Shown here: piece by piece, positions 34,244 through 48,506 of the stretch
How positions within the stretch are numbered: the first letter of the stretch is position 1
How the letters are laid out: the number at the start of each line of letters is the position of its first letter
IMG/VR virus record: IMGVR_UViG_3300013307_000021
Coordinates: 1 to 63,584 of that record
Length of the DNA: 63,584 nucleotides
DNA from: a virus
Reading direction: 5' to 3' (one strand)
The notes under the pieces: model-generated
Seen by the model: only the letters and a program-made list of their open reading frames with translations
Database searches by the model: none
Told to the model about the DNA's origin: nothing
Position numbers and translations under genes: made by a program

Positions 34244-34513
34244 TTAAAATCCCTCATTATCGTACATAACGTTTTCAATAGCATCTTCACGAAGCTTACA
34301 TTGAAGTTCACGCATAAGTTCTTCCTTGGTCACAGTACCAGCCCAAGGCTTGCCGTTCTGACTCAGAGAGATAATATCGATAAAGAAACCACCCTGATAA
34401 TCCCAATCGCTGTCTACACAATAAGGATCTGGTGCATTATATTCACAAGCCACTTCAACTTGAATTCTCTCGCCCAGGTCAGTTTTATAATCAAAATCAT
34501 AAGTTACGTACAT
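34244..34513 (-). CDS. Unknown small protein
   Basis: This 89-residue acidic protein has a beta-rich N-terminal half and a helical C-terminus. It overlaps the stop of the glycosyltransferase gene upstream (TAATG). No family is recognised. Confidence 0.6.
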   Translation of the reverse strand: MYVTYDFDYKTDLGERIQVEVACEYNAPDPYCVDSDWDYQGGFFIDIISLSQNGKPWAGTVTKEELMRELQCKLREDAIENVMYDNEGF

Positions 34514-35460
34514 TAAAGCCCCTTAAAAATCTCACGACGAATATCATTCATCTTAGTTATGTTATAATGCTTGCGAACGTGTTCCGCTAAGCCTGCGCCA
34601 ATTTCTGCTGCAAAGTCTGGTGAAGTGTATAACTTAGAAGTCATATCTTCCCACTGAATATGATCATTAGCATACAGCAGATAATCGGAAAGTGATTCAT
34701 CCTCGTAGCAATCCACGGAAGTGCAGATGATAGGCAAACCCTTAGCGCCAGCCTCAAGAATTTTGAGGTTGCTTTTAGACCTGTTGAAGTTTGTATCTTC
34801 GAGAGGAGCTAATGCTGCTGAGTGACCGTCATAGGACTTCATATAGGAATCAAGAGTACGATGGTGCTCATACTTCGCGTAAGGTAGGATACTCTGTGAG
34901 ATATCCATCCACTCCCGCTTAGAAATAGGCTCTGATGCGTCTGTCTTGTATCCACACACAGTTAACCTGTCACCTAAATCTGGGAGTTCTCTTAAGTCAT
35001 TTTTGTGTGTCTCACTACCTGCCCATACGAAGAATGATTTCGAGGTTTTATCAGTAGAGAGTGTAAACCCTTTTTCATCAAAAGGCAAGCCATTTGGTAC
35101 AACAAACACATTTTTATTATACTGAGAAAACTCTTCTGCTAGTCGAGCAGTAGTTGTCAACACAGCATCGCTGTTTTGCATACACCAGATCAGCTCATTC
35201 TTAACTCCTGACTCAAATACATTCCACAGAACGTGGTCAATAGGTAACTCCATAGAGTCATCTAGATCCATAACTATCTTGAATCCAGCTTGACGAAGCT
35301 TATTGATTCCTTCCCTGCCGTGAGTAGGCAAGCCGTTAAAGATGTAAATATCTGATTTAGCGGTGAAGTTATCACCCGTCAGATAAGGAAGGTAAATTCG
35401 ATGATAATCGCAAATACTTTGGTCAGCACCGCCGCGATCATCTACTAAAATCTTTGCCAT
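34513..35460 (-). CDS. Glycosyltransferase, GT-B/GT4-like (second copy)
   Basis: This 315-residue protein is a clear paralogue of the next gene upstream. Shared features are Cys-Asp-Tyr-His-Arg near the N-terminus, Asp-Leu-Asp-Asp near residue 60, Pro-Asn-Gly-Leu-Pro-Phe-Asp near 125, and Ser-Asn-Leu-Lys-Ile-Leu-Glu-Ala-Gly-Ala-Lys-Gly near 230. The last resembles the nucleotide-sugar-binding Glu-x7-Glu region of GT4 enzymes. It should move a sugar to a phage or host acceptor. Acceptor unknown. Confidence 0.75.
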   Translation of the reverse strand: MAKILVDDRGGADQSICDYHRIYLPYLTGDNFTAKSDIYIFNGLPTHGREGINKLRQAGFKIVMDLDDSMELPIDHVLWNVFESGVKNELIWCMQNSDAVLTTTARLAEEFSQYNKNVFVVPNGLPFDEKGFTLSTDKTSKSFFVWAGSETHKNDLRELPDLGDRLTVCGYKTDASEPISKREWMDISQSILPYAKYEHHRTLDSYMKSYDGHSAALAPLEDTNFNRSKSNLKILEAGAKGLPIICTSVDCYEDESLSDYLLYANDHIQWEDMTSKLYTSPDFAAEIGAGLAEHVRKHYNITKMNDIRREIFKGL

Positions 35461-35474
35461 AGGTTCCTCTTGTG

Positions 35475-35490
35475 AAGGGCCGAAGCCCTT
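35475..35490 (-). repeat. AAGGGC-TTCG-GCCCTT intergenic hairpin, copy
   Basis: The same perfect hairpin as at 29688-29703 lies between the two GT-B genes. As there, it begins on the TAA stop codon of the upstream gene and ends just before the next ribosome site. Confidence 0.75.
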
Positions 35491-36499
35491 ATTTTAAACT
35501 CTCATATACCTGACGTCTTAGCTCATTAGCATCGTCCAGGTTGTAATGTAATCGAACGTGTTCGGCTAGTGCTAATCCTCTGTCTTCACAGTAGGCAGGA
35601 TTTTTAATGTACCGATTCAATTCCTGTTCCCACTCCCACGTTTTGCTTGCGTAATCTACGAAAGGTTCATCGATAGGATTAAAATAGGGTAAAACTTTGG
35701 AACAGATAATTGGTATCCCTTTTGCACCAGCTTCTAAGATCTTCAAGTTCGACTTGCACCGATTAAACTCGTTATCGATAAGAGGAGCTATCGCCAGGCG
35801 ATGTGTATCGTACACCTGCATATAGTTCTTAATGTCAGCTACAGCAGGCACAAGATTAACACCTTCAAAGGTATTCTTGATCTTCAACCACTCCTGAGCA
35901 GACATTTCCTTATGAGTTCCCTTAGCAACCTTATCGATATTTTCATAACCTGCCAAAGTAAGCAAGCTATAATCTTCCATTGCCCAAGTAACTACTTGTA
36001 GGTCGTCAGCGTGGGAAGCTCCACCCGCCCATACAACAGGTGTGCCAGAAGATTTATCGGTGCTGAGTGTAAACTGACTCTTATCAAAAGGCAAAGCATT
36101 TCTGATAACAACAATGTTACGATGATAAGGTCTCAACTTAGCCGCTAGAAGCTCTGTAGTGACCGTCACAACGTCTGCGTAGCTAAGGAATGCAATCGCC
36201 TGTTCTTCAAAGTTATGCGCTCTGAATGTCTCATAGAGGTAATGAGAAGGGTCTAACTCAAAGAAGTCATCCCAATCCACGATAATCTTAACACCATCTG
36301 CTTTCATTCGTTTCAACATAGCAATACCACCACCGAACATACGGTTGAATACGAGGATGTTTGCTTGAGGGCTAAACACTGCTTCGTTATCATATAGAGG
36401 CATTGTCACACGATGATAATCACAGCTACTGTTTGGTTTCAAATCTAGGAGAAGATCAAATTCCTTGGGCTTCTTCGTAAGACCAATATGTTTTTCCAT
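35489..36499 (-). CDS. Glycosyltransferase, GT-B/GT4-like (first copy)
   Basis: This 336-residue protein has the same layout as its downstream paralogue: Cys-Asp-Tyr-His-Arg near residue 30, Asp-Trp-Asp-Asp-Phe near 76, an Asn-Ala-Leu-Pro-Phe-Asp segment near 135, and Ser-Asn-Leu-Lys-Ile-Leu-Glu-Ala-Gly-Ala-Lys-Gly near 245. It starts 44 bases inside the end of the upstream GT-A gene, with GGAGG upstream. Tandem duplication within a glycosylation cluster is the simplest origin. Confidence 0.75.
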   Translation of the reverse strand: MEKHIGLTKKPKEFDLLLDLKPNSSCDYHRVTMPLYDNEAVFSPQANILVFNRMFGGGIAMLKRMKADGVKIIVDWDDFFELDPSHYLYETFRAHNFEEQAIAFLSYADVVTVTTELLAAKLRPYHRNIVVIRNALPFDKSQFTLSTDKSSGTPVVWAGGASHADDLQVVTWAMEDYSLLTLAGYENIDKVAKGTHKEMSAQEWLKIKNTFEGVNLVPAVADIKNYMQVYDTHRLAIAPLIDNEFNRCKSNLKILEAGAKGIPIICSKVLPYFNPIDEPFVDYASKTWEWEQELNRYIKNPAYCEDRGLALAEHVRLHYNLDDANELRRQVYESLK

Positions 36500-38485: not shown

Positions 38486-38965
38486 CTATTTGTAAAACTG
38501 ATGTTCTTTGTATCTGTACACCATCACCATATCACGTTGCCAATGGGTACGTACAGTTCTTTTCTTGAAATATGTTGCCCCTTTAGTAGGGTCAGCGGCT
38601 TTTCTTACCTCTGGAAAGTTTGCATCAAGATACAAAAGCTTTTTTGCTAACGTTCTTGCGTCTTCCCAGCTCTCTTTGTCATACGCACGGAAAGATCCGG
38701 CTTGAGTATAAGAGAATTGCCCTCTTTGAAACAACACACCTTTAACACTATCTGGGAAAGTAGCATTGTCAGTTCTGTTTATCACAACATTACCGACTGC
38801 ATTCATTCCTTTTTTACCTTGGCTTCTACTTTCAGCATACATTGCACAAGCTAACATATCTACTTTATTGTCATTTCTTGTACATTTATGTGATACAGAA
38901 GCTTTTGCATCAACACCTGGAGATACTACAGCAAGAGTTAATGCAAGTAAAGGCGCTACTAGCAT
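38486..38965 (-). CDS. Secreted cell-wall hydrolase (SleB/Hydrolase_2 family)
   Basis: This 159-residue protein has an N-terminal signal-like hydrophobic stretch (about residues 1-20) and a SleB-type core. Tyr-Ala-Glu-Ser-Arg-Ser-Gln-Gly-Lys-Lys-Gly (catalytic Glu about 46) is followed by Val-Val-Ile-Asn-Arg, then Gln-Phe-Ser-Tyr near 82. SleB-like enzymes cut peptidoglycan glycan strands. With no other lysin in the window it is the endolysin candidate; an exported (SAR- or Sec-) route is implied by the leader. Start ATG 38965 follows AAAGGAGAG. Confidence 0.82.
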   Translation of the reverse strand: MLVAPLLALTLAVVSPGVDAKASVSHKCTRNDNKVDMLACAMYAESRSQGKKGMNAVGNVVINRTDNATFPDSVKGVLFQRGQFSYTQAGSFRAYDKESWEDARTLAKKLLYLDANFPEVRKAADPTKGATYFKKRTVRTHWQRDMVMVYRYKEHQFYK

Positions 38966-39021: not shown

Positions 39022-39050
39022 ATTCTAACACTAACGACTACATAAAGCAA
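39022..39050 (-). promoter_or_regulatory. Sigma-70-like promoter before the hydrolase gene
   Basis: On the minus strand TTGCTT (39050-39045) and TAGAAT (39027-39022) are 17 bases apart, between the TTCG hairpin and the hydrolase gene. Confidence 0.6.
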
Positions 39051-39066
39051 AGGGGCCGAAGCCCCT
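39051..39066 (-). terminator. GGGGC-TTCG-GCCCC hairpin after the TerD gene
   Basis: AGGGGC-TTCG-GCCCCT, read on the minus strand, is followed by TTTGCTTT. It is a likely terminator of the Ter-type genes and belongs to the recurrent TTCG-hairpin set. Confidence 0.7.
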
Positions 39067-39075
39067 CTTTAATTC

Positions 39076-39675
39076 TTATTCAAACCAATCTTCTGAGGCA
39101 CCGAAGGCGGTGAATGCATCCAGAATGCTACCATTCTTGCCTGCACCGACACCTACGAGATCCCAGCCACCTGCGTCTGAACGTTTCAGAGAGGCTACGT
39201 GGATGATACTGCGTCCAGCGTGTTCTTTCTCCAGGAAGTTGAAGTCCAGTACGGTTTCGTTGGTCTCCATATTCACCAGTTCCAGCAGACCAGAGGTTGC
39301 GTTACCGAAGGTCAGGGTGTCTGAATCATCATCGATGGTCAGAACAAATGGGATCTCAGTAACATCTTCTGGCAGGGTTTCCAGGTTGATATCAATGGTC
39401 TCAAAGTCGCCAGTACCGTCACGAACATCACCGCCGTAGAACACTGAACGGCTCGGGTCAAAGCCATTCGTAGGGGCATAGAACACGATGTGTCGAACAT
39501 CAATAACTTCTGGATAACCTTTTGCATCAGTACGGCACAGCAGGGCTGAACAGTCCAGATCCAGCTTCACATCAGAAGTCCAGTTAAAGCGCATCAGAAT
39601 CTTTTTCAGCAGCGGAGCTACTTTGCGCAGTGATACTTTTTCAGAGTTACCTTTTTTCAGTGATACCTTAGCCAT
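39076..39675 (-). CDS. TerD-domain stress protein
   Basis: This 199-residue protein has a beta-sandwich TerD core. Visible are Asp-Leu-Asp-Cys-Ser near residue 39, an acidic Asp-Gly-Thr-Gly-Asp region near 87, Val-Leu-Thr-Ile-Asp-Asp-Asp near 110, and a C-terminal Gly-Gly-Trp-Asp-Leu-Val-Gly-Val-Gly end. TerD proteins bind calcium via such acids and take part in tellurite resistance and envelope stress in bacteria. The N-terminal Val-Ser-Leu-Lys-Lys is shared with the next gene. It is the last gene of the Ter-type module. Confidence 0.85.
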   Translation of the reverse strand: MAKVSLKKGNSEKVSLRKVAPLLKKILMRFNWTSDVKLDLDCSALLCRTDAKGYPEVIDVRHIVFYAPTNGFDPSRSVFYGGDVRDGTGDFETIDINLETLPEDVTEIPFVLTIDDDSDTLTFGNATSGLLELVNMETNETVLDFNFLEKEHAGRSIIHVASLKRSDAGGWDLVGVGAGKNGSILDAFTAFGASEDWFE

Positions 39676-39709
39676 TCTATGTTCTCCTTATCTATTAATG
39701 TTTGTTTAA

Positions 39710-40492
39710 TTACTTAGCTACAGACTGTACGTTGTGTGCATCGCACCAATCTTTGAACTTACCTTTGAGAAGTTCATCATACAGTTGTTCGTCTGGTAAG
39801 TCAAGACTTTCTACCGAAATAAAGTCAACATTCGGGAAGTCTTTAGCCAGACCTTTCAGGCTACGGAAGCTGCTGCTACCCACACCCACCATAAACCAGA
39901 ACACCGGAGTGTTAATATTGCGTGAAAGCAGGCTACGAACGGTGGAGTCGTCAGTGTTCTCGCCGTCAGTCTGGAACAACACCATTGCTGGCATCATATT
40001 CTCAGGATCTTCGTAAATAGTCTGAGTTGTGCTGATAGTGACAGTTTCAGTTTTACCCAGAAGCTTACCGAAGAAACCACCTTTAGGGCGAACTTCTTGT
40101 GAATGACTTACTTCATTACGACTTACTTTACCGAAGTATGAACCGTAAATGTCATTCATTACTGGTGCATATGCAGTGCCGCCAGAGATTGAAATACCGC
40201 CCATACAGTTGCCAACATAATCAGCGTAAACATCAGCGGTTGCTGGTGGAAGCTCACGGAAACCGTGGTCAAATGCCCACATATCAATCTCTTCGTTATC
40301 ATCAAACAGCACACCAAAAGGTAGCAGTTTACCAACAAACTCACTCATAACACCACTACGATACAGACTTTGCATACTGCCGGAAATATCCAAGGCACTT
40401 GCTACACGCAACATCAGACGATCACCTAAACCTGCTTTTTTCAGGGACACTTTCAGTGTTTCGCTACGTTTCTTAAGGGATACTTTTGCCAT
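39710..40492 (-). CDS. vWA-domain protein of the Ter family (TerF/TerY-like)
   Basis: This 260-residue protein has a von Willebrand A domain with the MIDAS motif Asp-Ile-Ser-Gly-Ser (about residue 35), a Thr in Gly-Gly-Thr-Ala-Tyr near 106 and Gln-Thr-Asp-Gly-Glu-Asn near 174. The start repeats Val-Ser-Leu-Lys-Lys twice, as in TerD-type proteins. Such TerF-like proteins are thought to hold metal-dependent complexes together in Ter stress systems. A promoter at 40526-40554 precedes it. Confidence 0.85.
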   Translation of the reverse strand: MAKVSLKKRSETLKVSLKKAGLGDRLMLRVASALDISGSMQSLYRSGVMSEFVGKLLPFGVLFDDNEEIDMWAFDHGFRELPPATADVYADYVGNCMGGISISGGTAYAPVMNDIYGSYFGKVSRNEVSHSQEVRPKGGFFGKLLGKTETVTISTTQTIYEDPENMMPAMVLFQTDGENTDDSTVRSLLSRNINTPVFWFMVGVGSSSFRSLKGLAKDFPNVDFISVESLDLPDEQLYDELLKGKFKDWCDAHNVQSVAK

Positions 40493-40519
40493 TCTTATTT
40501 CTCCTTCTTTGTGGTTAGT

Positions 40520-40554
40520 GGGGTAAGCTTAACTCACCCCGTTCTCTGTGTCAA
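40520..40554 (-). promoter_or_regulatory. Promoter with inverted repeat before the vWA/TerD genes
   Basis: TTGACA (40554-40549) and TAAGCT (40531-40526) are 17 bases apart. The TGA stop of the upstream gene lies inside the -35 box. GGGGTAAG (40520-40527) and CTCACCCC (40533-40540) form an imperfect inverted repeat (one G-T pair) over the -10 region. Confidence 0.7.
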
Positions 40555-41237
40555 CCGTTATTTTCAAGTAACTGTGTATCTAACTTCAAACCTAAGTGTT
40601 CCGCACCGATTCTTTTTGTCATTGCTGCTAAGGTAGATTCTACCTCAATTTTAGCGTTAGTTACAAGACTTTCCATACTTTCCTCGAAGCATCCAACTGC
40701 GAAAGTAGTGTCTGACTTGAATCGACCAAGAGATTGTTGCATAAGTCCTCTCAGTTCGTCAAGATCTTTTTTGCCAGCTTTACCTTTCAGGATCAGTTGT
40801 TCGATCTGCTCCAACACTTTCTCACCGCGTTCCAGCGTTTCTGCTAGTTTGCGATCATACTCACGTTTAGCTTTGTGTTTCGCAGTATCTTGCTTGCCAA
40901 TCCCAGGCAATACCTTAAGATCCCCATCACGGAAGTACTTAAAGGTTACAGGAGTAGGACTGCCCATACTTGAGCTAACCATACGTGCCCACTGAGAGTG
41001 AGTCAGTTCTACTTCCAGAATGCGTCCACGCTCGTGATACCAAGTACTGTTGAGGTGACGATCTTCTTCTGCCAGGCAGAAGGTGAGACATACGCGCTCA
41101 TTGTGAATCAGATCACTACCAAACATCTTAACCTGACCACCGGAAGGGTGAGTTACCCGCACCAGCCCGTAGGCTGGATGCGTGATAGAGTAGTTTTCAG
41201 CCGTACCCTCGATTACCGGATCAACATCATTGCGCAT
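40551..41237 (-). CDS. Unknown protein in the Ter-type module
   Basis: This 228-residue protein has a beta-rich N-terminal domain (about 1-105, with Gly-Ser-Asp-Leu-Ile-His-Asn near 42) and a charged, coiled-coil C-terminal half (about 115-215). It lies between the vWA gene and TelA, with overlap at both ends of its neighbour genes, so it probably works with them. No family is recognised. Confidence 0.7.
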   Translation of the reverse strand: MRNDVDPVIEGTAENYSITHPAYGLVRVTHPSGGQVKMFGSDLIHNERVCLTFCLAEEDRHLNSTWYHERGRILEVELTHSQWARMVSSSMGSPTPVTFKYFRDGDLKVLPGIGKQDTAKHKAKREYDRKLAETLERGEKVLEQIEQLILKGKAGKKDLDELRGLMQQSLGRFKSDTTFAVGCFEESMESLVTNAKIEVESTLAAMTKRIGAEHLGLKLDTQLLENNG

Positions 41238-41490
41238 CTCGTACCTCGTACTCTACGTGAAAGATCAGTTCTCCCAATGGTAAAATATCGTTAGGCAGAG
41301 TTGTTAACTTATCTCGACACTCCAGCAGAGTTTCAACAATATTAACACGCATACCATCGTTATCGGCTGGTAGTGAGTCTAAAGCCTTCAACACCATAAC
41401 ACCGATTGGGTAGATCAGGTCAGGCTCTACTGAGTATTGAAGAGCATACAGCTCTGTGCCTTCAACCTTACTAATCTTAATGGATTCCAT
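41227..41490 (-). CDS. Unknown small protein in the Ter-type module
   Basis: This 87-residue acidic protein starts two bases after the stop of TelA and overlaps the next gene by 11 bases. The C-terminal strand pattern Leu-Ile-Phe-His-Val-Glu-Tyr-Glu-Val suggests a small beta domain. No family is recognised. Confidence 0.65.
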   Translation of the reverse strand: MESIKISKVEGTELYALQYSVEPDLIYPIGVMVLKALDSLPADNDGMRVNIVETLLECRDKLTTLPNDILPLGELIFHVEYEVRDAQ

Positions 41491-41491
41491 A

Positions 41492-42604
41492 TTAAACTCC
41501 TTTATTGGTTAAGCCAGTGCGGATTGTCTGAACAAGGCTATCTTCCAGTTCACCCACACGAGTGATGTATTGTACACGTTCTTGACGCGCATTGTTATTA
41601 ATTTCGTTAATCGCTTCCAGATCCTTAAGAAGTGTAGCCTGCTCACGTTCTAAGGTCTCAATGCTTACCACCTGACGATTAGCCAAACGTGCAGCTTCTA
41701 CGCGGTTTGCAGACGCCAGTTCACCACCTAATGCGATAGCATTATTGAACTCGTCAATCGTGCTGTTAAGCGCTTCTGCGGCTTTCTTCTGACGCATACT
41801 GTGTACATATGCAGAGAATGCTGCGGTGTAAGCTGGAATAACGTTAGTGAGAACGTTGTTACTTGCACGGATAAGCTGACGACCAACTTCTTCCATACCT
41901 TTAACACGTTGACCAAACTGAACCATCAACAGGCGAAGTGCCGCCAAGTCATTGATACGGGTTTCAATCAGATCCATCGTACCACGTTTCTCTTCTCGTG
42001 CCTCTACCTCTTCTTCTGGGATACTGTCGAATGTCGCCTGCTCACGCTCTAAGTTTGCAGAGAGAAGTTCGATATCACGGTTCAGTGCCAGGGCATAATG
42101 TCCAGCCTGCTCACGCAGTTGCTTAAGCTGATGCTGACCATCTTTCTCACGCTTAAGATCCTCAGTCAGTTCGCCCACTAGAACGTTGATTCGACCATCA
42201 ATAGTATCAAACTGCTCAAAGATATCTTCCTTGATGCCCAGAATGCGTTTCCAGATCTTCTTGATCCCTTTCGAGTTTTTCATACTGTTAGGATCAAGTT
42301 GCTTTGTTTCTTTGACCAAAGCATTAAGACGGTTTGACAGTTCATCACCATTGTTTGCACGTTGGTGTTTCAGTACCTGTGAAGCTACAGCCTTGATCTG
42401 CTGACCTGCTGCTGCACCTGTACCTTGAATATCTTCCTCTGTCATAACAGCCGGAAGAGTTGTTTGCTTAGCCGACACTGCCGGAGCGAACACCGGACTA
42501 CCGACCAGAGGATTATTCAGTGCTGATTTTACTTCCTTTTCTTGTGTAGCCATAGGGCTGCGTGAACGGGAAGATTGTGTTGCTCTCAGAAATGGGCTAG
42601 TCAT
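41492..42604 (-). CDS. TelA/KlaA-type toxic-anion resistance protein
   Basis: This 370-residue, mostly helical protein matches the TelA family in length and pattern: an Ala/Ser-rich start, then heptad-rich helices with Leu-Arg-Glu-Gln-Ala and Asn-Arg-Asp-Ile-Glu-Leu-Leu near 165-180, and a C-terminal Asn-Asn-Ala-Arg-Gln-Glu-Arg segment. In bacteria TelA proteins are linked with TerC and TerD-type proteins in tellurite and stress resistance. It sits four genes upstream of TerD here. Confidence 0.82.
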   Translation of the reverse strand: MTSPFLRATQSSRSRSPMATQEKEVKSALNNPLVGSPVFAPAVSAKQTTLPAVMTEEDIQGTGAAAGQQIKAVASQVLKHQRANNGDELSNRLNALVKETKQLDPNSMKNSKGIKKIWKRILGIKEDIFEQFDTIDGRINVLVGELTEDLKREKDGQHQLKQLREQAGHYALALNRDIELLSANLEREQATFDSIPEEEVEAREEKRGTMDLIETRINDLAALRLLMVQFGQRVKGMEEVGRQLIRASNNVLTNVIPAYTAAFSAYVHSMRQKKAAEALNSTIDEFNNAIALGGELASANRVEAARLANRQVVSIETLEREQATLLKDLEAINEINNNARQERVQYITRVGELEDSLVQTIRTGLTNKGV

Positions 42605-42619
42605 ATTCGTCTCCTCTAA

Positions 42620-43168
42620 TTAAAAGTTATACTCACCAGATACAACGTTACGCCGTGTACCTTTAATAAACTCTACCACATCTCCGCTTTGGAAGTAAAG
42701 AGAAGACTCGAAGTTTGGTGATTTAACCAGGATTTTCTCCAAGCTGTCTGCTTTAATACGAACTGAAACTTGTTCAATAACATCATCATCGGCTTCACCC
42801 TTCTGTTTCAGCAGAAGAAGAACATAATCTGGAATCAACATCATTGTCAAAGGATTTTTCACTTTGTATTTGCTACCGTCCGTGTAACTGATCTCCAGAG
42901 TTGGTACAGTCTTGGCTGTTTTCTTTGGCCCTTTCTTGCGGGAAGTCTTAACTTTACCCTCAAGATTTCGCTCAGCAATAACTCGCTTGCCAACCATATC
43001 CCACGCAAAATCAAAAGTATTGCCGGATTTATCGTAACCGTTGTAGCCAGGGATATATTTATACTTCTTGCCATCAGTCCACACACGTAATGGCATACCC
43101 ATAAACTTACGGGATTCCTCTACCATAGTAGCCCAAGCTGGTGCGCCTTTAAACATATCTTCTTTCAT
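42620..43168 (-). CDS. Paralogue A of a three-member phage family
   Basis: This 182-residue protein has an N-terminal domain (Trp-Ala-Thr-Met, Leu-Arg-Val-Trp-Thr-Asp-Gly), a Lys-rich linker (about 90-105) and a C-terminal beta domain with Tyr-Thr-Asp-Gly-Ser-Lys-Tyr and a Met-Met-Leu-Ile-Pro-Asp strand. The linker plus Tyr-x-Asn/Asp-Gly pattern is repeated in the genes at 49233 and 50095. Role unknown; small binding domains of KOW/SH3 type are possible. Confidence 0.65.
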   Translation of the reverse strand: MKEDMFKGAPAWATMVEESRKFMGMPLRVWTDGKKYKYIPGYNGYDKSGNTFDFAWDMVGKRVIAERNLEGKVKTSRKKGPKKTAKTVPTLEISYTDGSKYKVKNPLTMMLIPDYVLLLLKQKGEADDDVIEQVSVRIKADSLEKILVKSPNFESSLYFQSGDVVEFIKGTRRNVVSGEYNF

Positions 43169-43169
43169 A

Positions 43170-43748
43170 TTAATTCTCCTCTCTGTAAGGTGATTGCCCA
43201 AGTATTTGACAGATTGTAACCCACTTTTCCCAAGTATACAACCAAACTTTTCCCATAGACTCTTCTTTTTTACCTTTCATAAAGGTATCAGCCATAACGG
43301 AGTTTGGCTTGTAGTGTGCAGGTTTTCTGTGATAGCCCCTGAGCATTTTAACGCTACGATCACTTTCACGATAAGCACATACAAACTTATACTGGACTTT
43401 CACGGCACGTTTAGATGCAGACTTAGCTACTGCACCAAGTTCCTCTGCAATGGCTTTCCAAGGTGCGCTATGATCAGATACACCGCGCTGGCAGAAGTCG
43501 ATAGCGTGAGCAATCTCGTGCCACATAGTATCAATTATCGCTTCGTCCTGACTATTCTTATGTAAGAATCTATTGATAGCCACAATACGTTCTCTGTGAT
43601 TGCACCAACCAAAGCTATTATTTCTCCTTTCACGAACACACGCTTTATACCCAAAGCGCTTCATCATCGCGTGATAGTCGGGGAAGTTATCTTTTAACTC
43701 AGTCATAACTCCTGCCCACAACATCATTATATCTTGAATAGTCTTCAT
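43170..43748 (-). CDS. SprT-like zinc metalloprotease
   Basis: This 192-residue protein has the zinc motif His-Glu-Ile-Ala-His (residues 77-81) within Thr-Met-Trp-His-Glu-Ile-Ala-His-Ala-Ile-Asp, followed by Ser-x-His-Ser-Ala-Pro-Trp, as in SprT/WLM-type minigluzincins. Such proteases often act on DNA-bound or damaged proteins. The start chosen is ATG 43748 after ATCGGAGGAAG. It overlaps no neighbour and is preceded by a promoter. Confidence 0.75.
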   Translation of the reverse strand: MKTIQDIMMLWAGVMTELKDNFPDYHAMMKRFGYKACVRERRNNSFGWCNHRERIVAINRFLHKNSQDEAIIDTMWHEIAHAIDFCQRGVSDHSAPWKAIAEELGAVAKSASKRAVKVQYKFVCAYRESDRSVKMLRGYHRKPAHYKPNSVMADTFMKGKKEESMGKVWLYTWEKWVTICQILGQSPYREEN

Positions 43749-43771
43749 ACTTCCTCCGATTTCTCTTAACA

Positions 43772-43806
43772 AGAGAGATCTTACGATCCCTCTGAGTAAA
43801 AGTCAA
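43772..43806 (-). promoter_or_regulatory. Promoter with inverted repeat before the SprT-like gene
   Basis: TTGACT (43806-43801) contains the TGA stop of the upstream gene; TAAGAT (43783-43778) follows after 17 bases. AGAGAGATC (43772-43780) and GATCCCTCT (43785-43793) pair (one G-T) around the -10 box. Confidence 0.7.
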
Positions 43807-44015
43807 TCTACCTCTTGCACTAATACCTTTCCTGCTTCGATAGCTGCCTTATAACAGTACTGAGTAGCAGAAGTGGATACGCCTTGGAACGTGTAACTCT
43901 CGTCTACCGTTCCTTTATGCTCAATACTTTGCAGTAAGAAGATATTGGCATTTTCGAGTAAAACCATATCGTCAAACATTGCACCTAAGAGGCGATACTT
44001 CTTTCCTACTTTCAT
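43803..44015 (-). CDS. Unknown small protein
   Basis: This 70-residue, acidic alpha/beta protein starts after AGGAGACAAGG. It lies between a lipoprotein gene and the SprT-like gene. No family is recognised. Confidence 0.6.
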   Translation of the reverse strand: MKVGKKYRLLGAMFDDMVLLENANIFLLQSIEHKGTVDESYTFQGVSTSATQYCYKAAIEAGKVLVQEVD

Positions 44016-44027
44016 CCTTGTCTCCTA

Positions 44028-44624
44028 TTAACGACGACGGAAGCTACTTGAACGGCTGCTGCTTGAGCTACGAGACGAGAAGCTAGAAGAGCTACGGCTC
44101 GGTTTGCTGTAAGAGCGTGAACTTGAGCTAGATGAACTGCTAAAGGTGCTCGGTGCGCTCTTATAAGTGCTGCTTGACTTACCGCCACCAAACCAACCGC
44201 GAGTAGTAGTGGTGCGTGTTGTCGTAGTTGCAGCAGGACGGCTGTAAGAACTGCTGCCATTGCTATAAGAACTACCGCCGCGATAGTTACTGCCGTTGCT
44301 ATAGCTGCTGCTATTGTTGTGATTGTTAATCACAGTAGTGTTATTGCCACCACGACCTGCATTAGACAGAAGATGACCAGTAAGTGCGCCAGCCATAAAA
44401 GTACCGACACCGCTATCGTGATGACCGCCACCCGCAACAACTACAGTAGAAGGCTGTTGCTGAACCACAACTGGATTATCTGCATAGCCGTCTCCGTCAT
44501 AATCGTATTGCTGCTGCTGGGGAGCAGGGACAACTACGGTACGGGTACGATGATCGTCACAACCTGTAAGTGCTACGGTTGCCAGAAGAACAGTTGCTGC
44601 CAGAGTGATGATTGACTTTTTCAT
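44028..44624 (-). CDS. Ser/Arg-rich lipoprotein
   Basis: This 198-residue protein has a lipoprotein signal (Ala-Leu-Thr-Gly-Cys, Cys at residue 22). The mature part has an Asp-Tyr-Asp-Gly-Asp-Gly-Tyr-Ala motif, a Gly-rich region with a possible short membrane-associated stretch, and a C-terminal half made mainly of Ser, Arg, Thr and Gly repeats that ends in Phe-Arg-Arg-Arg. It should sit in the envelope. Its place among the Ter-type genes suggests an envelope partner of that module; this is inference. Confidence 0.75.
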   Translation of the reverse strand: MKKSIITLAATVLLATVALTGCDDHRTRTVVVPAPQQQQYDYDGDGYADNPVVVQQQPSTVVVAGGGHHDSGVGTFMAGALTGHLLSNAGRGGNNTTVINNHNNSSSYSNGSNYRGGSSYSNGSSSYSRPAATTTTRTTTTRGWFGGGKSSSTYKSAPSTFSSSSSSSSRSYSKPSRSSSSFSSRSSSSSRSSSFRRR

Positions 44625-44643
44625 AATTTATCCTCGCTTTAAG

Positions 44644-44814
44644 TTATTTAGATTGTATTACTTCACACTTGCCAAAACAATGAGACTCACCTTTATTTGT
44701 GAACTCAATCTTACCACCGTTCAGAGCACAAATCAACACCGTTGCAATAATAATCCATCCGATTGTTGATGCTACAAAGTCTATGACTGCAAAGACATAT
44801 CCGAACCACTTCAT
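44644..44814 (-). CDS. Small membrane protein
   Basis: This 56-residue protein has one strong hydrophobic segment (about residues 5-31) and a polar tail with Cys-Phe-Gly-Lys-Cys. It fills the gap between the 44816 gene and the lipoprotein gene. Ribosome site GGAGGTGTAGT. Unknown function. Confidence 0.6.
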   Translation of the reverse strand: MKWFGYVFAVIDFVASTIGWIIIATVLICALNGGKIEFTNKGESHCFGKCEVIQSK

Positions 44815-44815
44815 A

Positions 44816-45181
44816 CTACACCTCCGCTACAGGTACGTCAACAAATACTTCAACATCTTTTTCTTCATCCCAGAACATCAAACCGTTATCTGTTTCTGCG
44901 GTACTACAAGAAGAAGTCCAATACTCGTGTAAGTGGATCTCCAAGATAAGCGTATCGTCTGCGTTGGTGACTAACTTATGGTAGCTTACGCGCTTTCTGA
45001 CTTCACACTCGCCTTCACCGTCTCCATCACAAGCCACAATACCGGACGGGATGTATAGGTTATCTACGGTAGATGCAACAATCTTGATGCCAGGATGAGC
45101 AGCCTTCAAGCCTGTTATTGCATCGGACAAATGACGACAGAATAGATAGTTTTCTAGGAAATCTTCGTTAGAGTACACCAT
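44816..45181 (-). CDS. Unknown protein
   Basis: This 121-residue acidic protein starts at ATG 45181 after AAGGAGAAAAG. It has four Cys, two of them at Cys-Asp-Gly-Asp-Gly-Glu-Gly-Glu-Cys (about residue 52-60), which may bind a metal. It ends with a Val-Asp-Val-Pro-Val-Ala-Glu-Val tail. Located within the Ter-type module. Confidence 0.6.
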   Translation of the reverse strand: MVYSNEDFLENYLFCRHLSDAITGLKAAHPGIKIVASTVDNLYIPSGIVACDGDGEGECEVRKRVSYHKLVTNADDTLILEIHLHEYWTSSCSTAETDNGLMFWDEEKDVEVFVDVPVAEV

Positions 45182-45378
45182 TACTTTTCTCCTTGTGGAA
45201 TGCAATCACTGAATTCAATAACATATCCGTGCTTCTGACCGTCTCGGTTCTCTGCTTGCATAGCAAACTTAGCTATTTCAGTTTGACACGTTTGATAGGA
45301 CAGGTCAGGAACAACTACCTGATTCCAACCACCGTTACTGTTATAAAGCATACTCGTTATCAGCACTAAAGTAAACAT
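45181..45378 (-). CDS. Small secreted protein
   Basis: This 65-residue protein has a short hydrophobic leader (about residues 1-12) and two Cys (Cys-Gln-Thr near 30 and Asp-Cys near 58) that could form a disulphide bond after export. Function unknown. Confidence 0.55.
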   Translation of the reverse strand: MFTLVLITSMLYNSNGGWNQVVVPDLSYQTCQTEIAKFAMQAENRDGQKHGYVIEFSDCIPQGEK

Positions 45379-45379
45379 A

Positions 45380-45472
45380 TTATCTCCCCTCTCTTATTGA
45401 TAATGCCATTAGCGCGATTGCTGCCGATGGCAGGAATATAAACACTGTACAGCATAGAAATAAAATAATCAA
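45380..45472 (-). CDS. Possible TTG-start membrane micropeptide
   Basis: A 30-residue frame starting at TTG 45472 is almost all one hydrophobic segment with a basic end. AGGA lies a few bases upstream. It ends two bases before the 45378 gene. Evidence is only position and hydrophobicity. Confidence 0.35.
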   Translation of the reverse strand: MIILFLCCTVFIFLPSAAIALMALSIREGR

Positions 45473-45481
45473 GCTCTTGTC

Positions 45482-45574
45482 CTATAAAAGTTTTTTGATA
45501 ATTGACACTATGAAACATATTGCCAACACCGGAAGAACCAAGAGTACGATACATAAGGTAAACATTGCAAACAT
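45482..45574 (-). CDS. Single-membrane-segment micropeptide
   Basis: A 30-residue frame with a strongly hydrophobic centre (about residues 4-26) and Lys-Lys end follows GGAGAAAATA. It sits directly downstream of the TerC gene terminator. Confidence 0.5.
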   Translation of the reverse strand: MFAMFTLCIVLLVLPVLAICFIVSIIKKLL

Positions 45575-45595
45575 TATTTTCTCCTTTAACGAAAA

Positions 45596-45613
45596 AGCCT
45601 CCCGAAGGAGGCT
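45596..45613 (-). terminator. Terminator after the TerC-like gene
   Basis: Read on the minus strand, AGCCTCC-TTCG-GGAGGCT is a perfect 7-bp stem with TTCG loop, followed by TTTTCG. Confidence 0.85.
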
Positions 45614-45619
45614 CTATTC

Positions 45620-46684
45620 TTATTCAGTTGCTTCTTCTAAAGCTTCTTTCTTGTTGAGTACGTGGCTGTGATAAACCGCTGCACCCAAGAAAGCTACGCC
45701 AATCAGACCAGTTACCACTTCTGGAACTTCAATCAGGAAGTTCAGGAGCATAATCACTGCCAGGCAGAGGATAGCGAAGAAAGCACCATTCTCCATATAG
45801 CGGTATTCGCCCATCTGACCAGACTCAAGTACGTGCAGAGTCATTGAACGTACAAACAGCGCACCAATACCCAGACCAATCATAATCACCAAGAAGTACT
45901 GTGTGATAGCGAATGCTGCAATTAATCCGTCAAACGACATAGACGCATCCAGAATCTCAAGGTAGATGAAACCTGCCAGACCTGCTTTAACTACCGCACC
46001 AGTTGCTGCTGCCATTGCTTCGTCTTTTGCTTCAAGCCACTCAGACAGGAAGTGAATGCCTAAGAACAGAATCACACCAACCGCACCAGAAGCTAAGAAA
46101 GCTACACGTTCTGCCTGATCCGCACCAAAGCTTGCTACAATCAGTGCCAGAAGAGTAATACCAACCTGCGCCGTAATACCGCCACCAATCTTAGCTAGTG
46201 GCTTTTCAATCCAAGACAGCCAATGTGTTTCTTTTTCATCATCCAGGAAGAAGCCCAGAGCAACCATTAACAGGAACGCACCACCAAAACTCGCTACCAG
46301 ATGATGACTAGACTGTAGAACATCTGCATACTGTTTAGGGTCATTAAAGCCTAACCATACTGCGTGCCACGGGGTCATTTCACCCAAGCCCGCTACAATC
46401 AGAATCGGAAGTACTAATCGCATACCGAACACAGCAATCAACATACCCCAGGTGAGAAAACGTTTCTTCCACACTTCGTCCATATCTGCCAGTTTCTTAG
46501 CGTTAAGTACTGCGTTATCTGCTGAGAGAGAAACCTCAAGGACAGACAGAATAATCACCGCCAGTAAACCTTCAATCATTCCTGCTACAGTACCAGTTTC
46601 AGCGAAACCGATATAACCGCCAAGTGCAATACCGATACCCCAGAGAATTGTAGGGATTTTGTAGTACTTCATAAATGTGTTCAT
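45620..46684 (-). CDS. TerC-family membrane protein (DUF475-like)
   Basis: This 354-residue protein has about eight to nine hydrophobic segments. The early segment Val-Ser-Leu-Ser-Ala-Asp-Asn-Ala-Val (about residues 51-59) is the TerC-family acidic motif thought to bind metal ions, and an Asp-Ala-Ser-Met-Ser-Phe-Asp stretch near 245 is the second. TerC-like proteins export manganese or act in tellurite resistance. It is first in this group, with a promoter-sized gap upstream, and encoded in the same direction as TelA, vWA and TerD. Confidence 0.88.
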   Translation of the reverse strand: MNTFMKYYKIPTILWGIGIALGGYIGFAETGTVAGMIEGLLAVIILSVLEVSLSADNAVLNAKKLADMDEVWKKRFLTWGMLIAVFGMRLVLPILIVAGLGEMTPWHAVWLGFNDPKQYADVLQSSHHLVASFGGAFLLMVALGFFLDDEKETHWLSWIEKPLAKIGGGITAQVGITLLALIVASFGADQAERVAFLASGAVGVILFLGIHFLSEWLEAKDEAMAAATGAVVKAGLAGFIYLEILDASMSFDGLIAAFAITQYFLVIMIGLGIGALFVRSMTLHVLESGQMGEYRYMENGAFFAILCLAVIMLLNFLIEVPEVVTGLIGVAFLGAAVYHSHVLNKKEALEEATE

Positions 46685-46745: not shown

Positions 46746-46773
46746 ATCTTACCAGAATCTTTTTACTCGTCAA
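46746..46773 (-). promoter_or_regulatory. Sigma-70-like promoter for the TerC-like gene
   Basis: On the minus strand TTGACG (46773-46768) and TAAGAT (46751-46746) are 16 bases apart, about 60 bases upstream of ATG 46684. Confidence 0.7.
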
Positions 46774-47718: not shown

Positions 47719-47973
47719 TTAAGTAGTTGCGGGGATGGTGAACTCACCAATAACTTGACCAGTTGGTGTATCTTTAAACAGAGGGCTGGTGAACAGCTTA
47801 AGCTGATCTTCTTTCCAATTAGATACATCTACTGCTTTCAGGAAATCTTCTAGGGTGATTACACCCTCTTGAGCGGAATCCCCTACATAAAATCCTGTCT
47901 GACTTTTACCATCACTAACAAGAACAGTTACATCATCATACGGGAACTTTGATACTATAAACTTAGTACTCAC
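47719..47973 (-). CDS. Unknown small protein (GTG start)
   Basis: This 84-residue acidic protein starts at GTG 47973 after AAGGAGTTATAA; its start overlaps the stop of the macro-domain gene (GTGA). No family is recognised. Confidence 0.6.
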   Translation of the reverse strand: MSTKFIVSKFPYDDVTVLVSDGKSQTGFYVGDSAQEGVITLEDFLKAVDVSNWKEDQLKLFTSPLFKDTPTGQVIGEFTIPATT

Positions 47974-48506
47974 TTATAACTCCTTAAATTTTCCATTGCT
48001 TCTTTAGTCAGGGAGTATACCACGATTCTGTTCTCTGTCAAGCAGAGAGTTTCCTTGATCATAGCTTCAACGATACTCCACCTAGCCCCTGCAAGGCCAC
48101 ATCCAATAGCCGGTAAGCCTATAATCAAGTCTTCTGCGCCCCAATCTATAAGCTTAAAGGCCATCGCTTGAAGAGAGTTAAACATAGCATCATAGTCCAG
48201 ATCACGCAAGCCCAATTGACGCTTAGTGAATCCGTATTGCCCGTAAAGATTGAAAACATCTGGGCAGTTGTAGCCCAGGATATCAAAATCTTCTGGCTCT
48301 GCAATACCAACACTGAAACTTCCTAGCTTCTGCTTATCTCCTCGCACAGTCTCTAGATCTGCTTCCTGTGCATAAGGGAATGCCTTAACGATCTGAGGTG
48401 CAATACCTGACTTCATTGTGTTCATACAGTTTGCACAATGAGCAATCACTTGAACGTTGTTCTTTTTACCTTCGTCGATAAGGTTTCCAACTAAGTACTC
48501 AATCAT
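47970..48506 (-). CDS. Macro-domain protein (ADP-ribose binding/hydrolase candidate)
   Basis: This 178-residue protein matches the Poa1p/TARG1-type macro domain. It starts Ile-Glu-Tyr-Leu-Val-Gly-Asn-Leu, has His-Cys-Ala-Asn-Cys near 24, Gly-Ile-Ala-Pro-Gln-Ile near 35, and a phosphate-binding loop Gly-Leu-Pro-Ala-Ile-Gly-Cys-Gly-Leu-Ala-Gly near 130. Such proteins bind or hydrolyse ADP-ribose or its 1''-phosphate. In a phage this may undo host ADP-ribosylation defences or recycle tRNA-splicing by-products. It overlaps its upstream neighbour by eight bases. Confidence 0.85.
   Translation of the reverse strand: MIEYLVGNLIDEGKKNNVQVIAHCANCMNTMKSGIAPQIVKAFPYAQEADLETVRGDKQKLGSFSVGIAEPEDFDILGYNCPDVFNLYGQYGFTKRQLGLRDLDYDAMFNSLQAMAFKLIDWGAEDLIIGLPAIGCGLAGARWSIVEAMIKETLCLTENRIVVYSLTKEAMENLRSYK

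Follow-up and report, generated by a model that had tools for sequence, protein, structure and literature searches.

Several phages are known to carry Ter genes. A Ter set was described in 2018 for the Phapecoctavirus ZCKP1, which belongs to the same group as the virus studied here, together with the idea of a role in superinfection (PMC6141743). Abbreviated Ter operons with the same proposed role were reported for jumbo phages in 2021 (PMC7824862), and TerC, TerD, TerF and TelA were found in phage Psa374 in 2022 (PMC9796965). Here we analyzed an island of this kind, located at positions 39,076 to 46,684 on the minus strand of the IMG/VR record IMGVR_UViG_3300013307_000021, the whole 63.6 kb of which we call the window. 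As the Ter set and the superinfection idea had already been published in 2018 and 2021, the island joins a known kind, and neither phage Ter modules nor their proposed protective role are new. What we can add is a negative result for two genes of the island (40551 and 41227, named after their positions), a nearly empty site in Certrevirus, a swap of the TerC type, the lack of an enzymatic arm with a phosphoribosyltransferase (PRTase) and a haloacid dehalogenase-like (HAD) hydrolase, and a lipoprotein predicted to reside in the inner membrane. As the function of Ter proteins is still unclear even in bacteria, a minimal, conserved and selected phage set bears on a long-open question.

The window encodes a terminase, portal, major head, sheath, tape-measure and baseplate proteins as well as a DNA polymerase and a primase, its closest annotated relatives are Stephanstirmvirinae, and it is a fragment of a myovirus similar to these. 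The initial annotation, made from the sequence alone, had recognized a Ter-type module in a phage genome, and we are nearly certain that the island is indeed an abbreviated Ter system carried by a lytic Stephanstirmvirinae-like phage. Pfam profiles for TerD, the TerF-like vWA domain, TelA and DUF475/TerC, and also the SprT profile, all scored above their gathering cut-offs, and every matched gene lies on the minus strand (Table 1). The PHROG assignments concur with Pfam for the island genes, that of TelA already referring to tellurite resistance. The metal-site motifs are intact: the TerC-family protein has EVSLSADN and DASMSFD as a pair of acidic motifs, along with about eight hydrophobic segments, and the metal ion-dependent adhesion site of the vWA protein is complete (D35-x-S37-x-S39, read as DISGS, T106 and D176) with all of these residues being invariant. 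The predicted structure of the vWA protein, with a predicted local distance difference test score (pLDDT) of 84, resembles metal-binding vWA structures, and TerD matches the solved TerD structures 2kxt/2kxv and 3ibz; for TelA and TerC no usable solved structure related by sequence was found. We also considered a TerD-like beta-hairpin common to the N-termini of TerD and the vWA protein, as their first 20 residues are alike, but rejected it because the vWA model has a helix at residues 6–19. Compared to the relative L013, the ratios of nonsynonymous to synonymous substitution rates (dN/dS) are 0.053 for TerD, 0.113 for vWA, 0.061 for TelA, 0.024 for SprT and 0.075 for TerC, values that are rough where dS is near or above 1. 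Because all of them fall at about 0.02–0.11, the five genes are maintained under purifying selection and are not chance open reading frames.

The core order endolysin, TerD, vWA, TelA, TerC-family protein and macro domain recurs in 05F01, FKP3, phi92, Citrobacter phage Tr1 and several IMG/VR contigs, and an equivalent core arrangement is found in phAPEC8 by annotation and profile matches. TelA is present in 167 and TerD in 141 of 50,697 phage records, mostly from the window's virus group, for which the Ter gene set is standard equipment. The loci phi92 gp172–gp182 and phAPEC8 gp052–gp066 share with the window the endolysin, TerD, vWA, TelA, the lipoprotein, a TerC-family protein and the macro-domain flank in one order, but both have a canonical TerC instead of the DUF475 type, and phi92 differs further in having PRTase_3 and HAD genes nearby and no SprT or 40551 homologue. 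The Klebsiella phages 05F01 and FKP3 have the core, the DUF475-type TerC (67–68% identical to that of the window), SprT and the lipoprotein in common with the window, but unlike it they possess PRTase_3 and HAD. In 05F01, moreover, TelA is just 36% identical and an extra protein is encoded between TelA and SprT. By eye this protein (gene_119, L002 7383–8528) looks like a GHKL-type ATPase; it has no Pfam match. Altogether the TerC slot holds the DUF475 type in the clade of the window, 05F01 and FKP3 and canonical TerC in phi92, Tr1, FBKp34 and phAPEC8; genes have been gained, lost and swapped within the island, as seen for the TerC type and the presence of SprT. Outside of this group, the Ter operon of Dolichocephalovirinae (Caulobacter phage J4; Iyer 2021) also has adjacent TelA, vWA, TerC-family and TerD genes, but as a compact run of four without SprT or the phrog_21570 lipoprotein. 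The bacterial terZABCDEF operons (plasmid R478, Klebsiella) share TerC, TerD and TerF-type proteins with the phage island, which in contrast has no TerB, a single TerD, and TelA and SprT in addition.

Table 1: Features of the Ter island and its flanks (window coordinates).
Feature	Position	Strand	Basis
Endolysin (Hydrolase_2), boundary gene	38486..38965	-	Pfam 8e-21; equivalent place in relatives
Intrinsic-terminator-like hairpin after TerD	39049..39068	-	GC hairpin in 6/6 sequences, stems changed
TerD, 199 aa	39076..39675	-	Pfam PF02342, 4.5e-24
TerF-type vWA protein	39710..40492	-	Pfam vWA-TerF-like PF10138, 8e-33
phrog_6452 protein (40551), 228 aa	40551..41237	-	PHROG match
Clade-specific small protein (41227), 87 aa	41227..41490	-	Relatives in near kin only
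TelA, 370 aa	41492..42604	-	Pfam PF05816, 1.3e-30; phrog_5890 'tellurite resistance'
Fast-evolving protein, ~182 aa	42620..43168	-	No Pfam or PHROG match
SprT-like metalloprotease	43170..43748	-	Pfam PF10263, 1.5e-10; phrog_6445
Sigma-70-like promoter upstream of SprT-to-TerD gene run	43778..43806	-	Motif
Ser/Arg-rich lipoprotein, phrog_21570	44028..44624	-	Lipobox LTGC, then D-D
Intrinsic-terminator-like hairpin directly 3' of TerC	45596..45613	-	Hairpin at equivalent position in 5/5 aligned sequences
TerC-family membrane protein, DUF475 type, 354 aa	45620..46684	-	Pfam DUF475 7e-93, TerC 6e-15
Sigma-70-like promoter upstream of TerC	46746..46773	-	Motif TTGACG-16-TAAGAT
Macro-domain-like 'phosphatase' (phrog_335), boundary gene	47970..48506	-	PHROG

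In the window about 9 kb including the Ter island separate the endolysin from the macro-domain gene. These two genes are only 0.4–0.6 kb apart, and TelA is absent, in Certrevirus CR3 as well as in two further Certrevirus-like loci; the Ter island fills a site that is nearly empty in Certrevirus. The putative TerC promoter is near-identical in the close kin L011 and L013, and a promoter-like sequence is located at the equivalent place in 05F01 and FKP3. Relatives retain its position and those of the hairpins after TerC and TerD, but with differing sequences. The promoter-like motif upstream of SprT is conserved in L011 and L013 and not evident in 05F01 or FKP3. The pattern TTGAC-N16/17-TAnnAT, several times with TAAGAT as second box, occurs at 17 sites in the window versus 2.5 expected, including those before TerC and SprT, and may represent a promoter class of the phage.

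The initial annotation had singled out 40551 and 41227, nested between TelA and vWA, as the best candidates for new Ter components. Both are real open reading frames and 40551 belongs to a known PHROG family, but this role was rejected on the distribution of their relatives, and the linkage that holds for the core in related phages is not consistent for these two. Homologues of 40551 were identified in 355 plasmids and in 81 phage records, many of them from phages of Microbacterium, Cronobacter, Pectobacterium and Enterobacter. Eight of the 11 records holding the family, including Certrevirus and a Microbacterium phage, are without TelA, and the three having both are the kin contig G001, 05F01, where the homologue sits between vWA and TelA, and a jumbo phage of Brevundimonas, in which several kb separate it from TelA and it is on the opposite strand. 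In FBKp34, which was checked separately, the homologue is located at 39.7 kb, TerC at 53.9 kb and TelA at 59.4 kb, i.e., about 20 kb from the homologue, and in phi92, Tr1 and FKP3 the Ter core is present and the homologue absent. Since the family is found without TelA in other phages and in plasmids, lies far from it in FBKp34 and is missing in these three phages, 40551 is a passenger, a roaming phage and plasmid gene that was placed in the module here. Its low-confidence structure model (pLDDT 60) gave no PDB match, and Pfam matches were only at chance level. For 41227 no match was found among the phage records and relatives occur only in close-kin contigs (61–99% identity); it is a passenger as well and not a general Ter component. 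The 40551 homologue in L049 (5947–6692) contains five in-frame stops in the frame taken, and a frameshift is likely because the length of the match cannot be divided by three.

The SprT-like protease, also named in the initial annotation, has the HExxH zinc motif as HEIAH at residues 77–81. Its family phrog_6445 was found in seven of 12 records searched, being absent from phi92 and FBKp34, and it is an accessory of the island. The Ser/Arg-rich lipoprotein likewise proved to be real and conserved among relatives. A profile search detected it in eight of 12 records, including every tested member of the Stephanstirmvirinae except FBKp34, and its linkage to the Ter module is more consistent than that of 40551; tblastn gave no match for its relatives, probably due to the low-complexity filter. 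In E. coli, an aspartate directly after the lipid cysteine (position +2) predicts retention of a lipoprotein in the inner membrane. All eight homologues show C-D-D/E, an aspartate followed by an acidic residue, and the phage lipoprotein is thus predicted to stay in the inner membrane. We had also considered an outer-membrane superinfection-exclusion lipoprotein of the Llp/Cor type; the lipobox is present, but this reading was rejected because of the aspartate. The protein encoded at 42620–43168 is only 45% identical in amino acids to its counterpart in L013, compared to about 91% for its neighbours. At 44644–45378 a run of small genes, together with the beginning of the lipoprotein, shows 97–100% protein identity to L013 (4862–6089), and the gene at 44816 is 99% identical in DNA whereas genes neighbouring the patch are at about 74–87%, pointing to a recent recombination patch shared with L013. 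A second patch covers TerD and vWA, which are diverged from L011 (dS 0.2–0.34), the remainder being nearly identical to it.

What might such a module do for a phage? The initial annotation had suggested protection against competing phages or envelope stress, which is plausible, although inferred and previously published. Bacteria with insertions in terC, terD and terZ show weaker phage inhibition and less resistance to colicins, and Klebsiella becomes less phage-resistant when terC is deleted (PMC12054061). We regard envelope protection or the exclusion of rival phages or colicins by a Ter assembly as the most likely role and give it an even chance, an estimate that concerns the role and is separate from the identity of the module. 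The Ter genes would be transcribed from host sigma-70-type promoters, and cytosolic TerD, vWA and TelA would assemble with the TerC transporter into a metal-dependent scaffold at the inner membrane, with the lipoprotein as a possible partner on its periplasmic face. This assembly, which we infer, would preserve envelope integrity in the infected cell and make it harder for competing phages or colicins to enter before lysis; 40551 and 41227 are passengers. Such a role is supported by the family matches, the adhesion site and fold of the vWA protein, the order and flanks conserved across five named relatives and a number of contigs, the nearly empty Certrevirus site, purifying selection, the promoters and terminators, and the inner-membrane signal of the lipoprotein. 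Several points weigh against it. The effect of terC in Klebsiella is modest, with larger plaques for eight phages and slower growth under phage for four of eight (PMC12054061), and the literature we found gives no tested phenotype for any phage Ter gene. A PADLOC search matched no known defence family, the PRTase/HAD pair is lacking in the clade of the window, and TerB (PF05099) was found in none of the ten records searched, the window and nine related ones; bacterial ter operons include TerB, the described abbreviated phage operons do not (PMC7824862). A bolder version appears improbable to us, in which the Ter core of the phage would act as an exchangeable cassette forming a barrier at the inner membrane and would be a new system that keeps other phages from entering. 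It would do without the signal-making enzymes, the TerC slot would alternate between two family branches, the PRTase/HAD arm could be dispensed with, and a dedicated inner-membrane lipoprotein would couple the core to the periplasm. Lytic phages of the group infect E. coli K-12 and would thus offer a clean knockout system for Ter function, and the comparison separates neighbours worth testing (the lipoprotein and TerC) from passengers (40551 and 41227).

The main rival is metal handling for phage protein export: TerC/DUF475 would move Mn or Zn and, at the Sec translocon, help phage proteins that are exported to fold or to acquire their metal; TerD, TelA and vWA would be its partners in binding metal, and rival exclusion would be secondary. 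The TerC proteins of Bacillus handle Mn, metalate enzymes destined for export and are copurified with the secretion machinery (PMC10550928), terC of Klebsiella influences resistance to Zn and Mn (PMC12054061), and in the window the TerC gene seems to have its own promoter and terminator and exported proteins (lipoprotein, endolysin) are encoded nearby. We nevertheless consider it unlikely, as the analysis identified no exported phage protein that depends on metal, the DUF475 proteins form a branch separate from the characterized MeeF/MeeY, and TelA, vWA and TerD travel with the TerC-family gene.

The missing enzymes allow another explanation. PRTase/HAD enzymes have been described as the signal-making arm of full Ter systems, and abbreviated operons without them are also described (PMC7824862). 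Neither the PRTase_3 family nor homologues of the phi92 PRTase and HAD proteins occur in the window, in the 141-kb kin contig G001 or in G006, records that may be incomplete; a PRTase_3 gene and a HAD-like hydrolase are present in 05F01, FKP3, phi92 and Tr1, and phAPEC8 gp048 is annotated as a predicted dehalogenase-hydrolase beside the macro-domain gene. The phage might therefore have kept sensor and membrane parts and dropped the enzymes thought to make a nucleotide-like Ter signal, so that its TerD, vWA and TelA disturb the Ter response by which the host would otherwise inhibit it, with which the lack of TerB in all ten records would also agree. However, the enzyme-keeping relatives share the core, and the loss is therefore clade-specific and not a general logic; as G001 may also be incomplete, such a subversion of host signalling seems quite improbable. 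A tellurite or toxic-anion resistance set benefiting the infected cell, as the database names and the history of the families would imply, is the least credible of all, since the Psa374 authors judged an incomplete set unlikely to confer resistance (PMC9796965), a lytic phage leaves its host little time to profit, and TerB is absent.

Apart from the role of Ter envelope protection or rival exclusion, two observations concern other genes. Klebsiella phage FBKp34 (L050 12107–16330) has an annotated poly(ADP-ribose) polymerase with WGR and PARP domains near a macro-domain-type phosphatase gene, possibly an ADP-ribose writer/eraser pair in a phage. In the window itself, two adjoining phrog_7162 glycosyltransferases at 34513–36499, within a larger glycosyltransferase cluster, apparently arose by tandem duplication.

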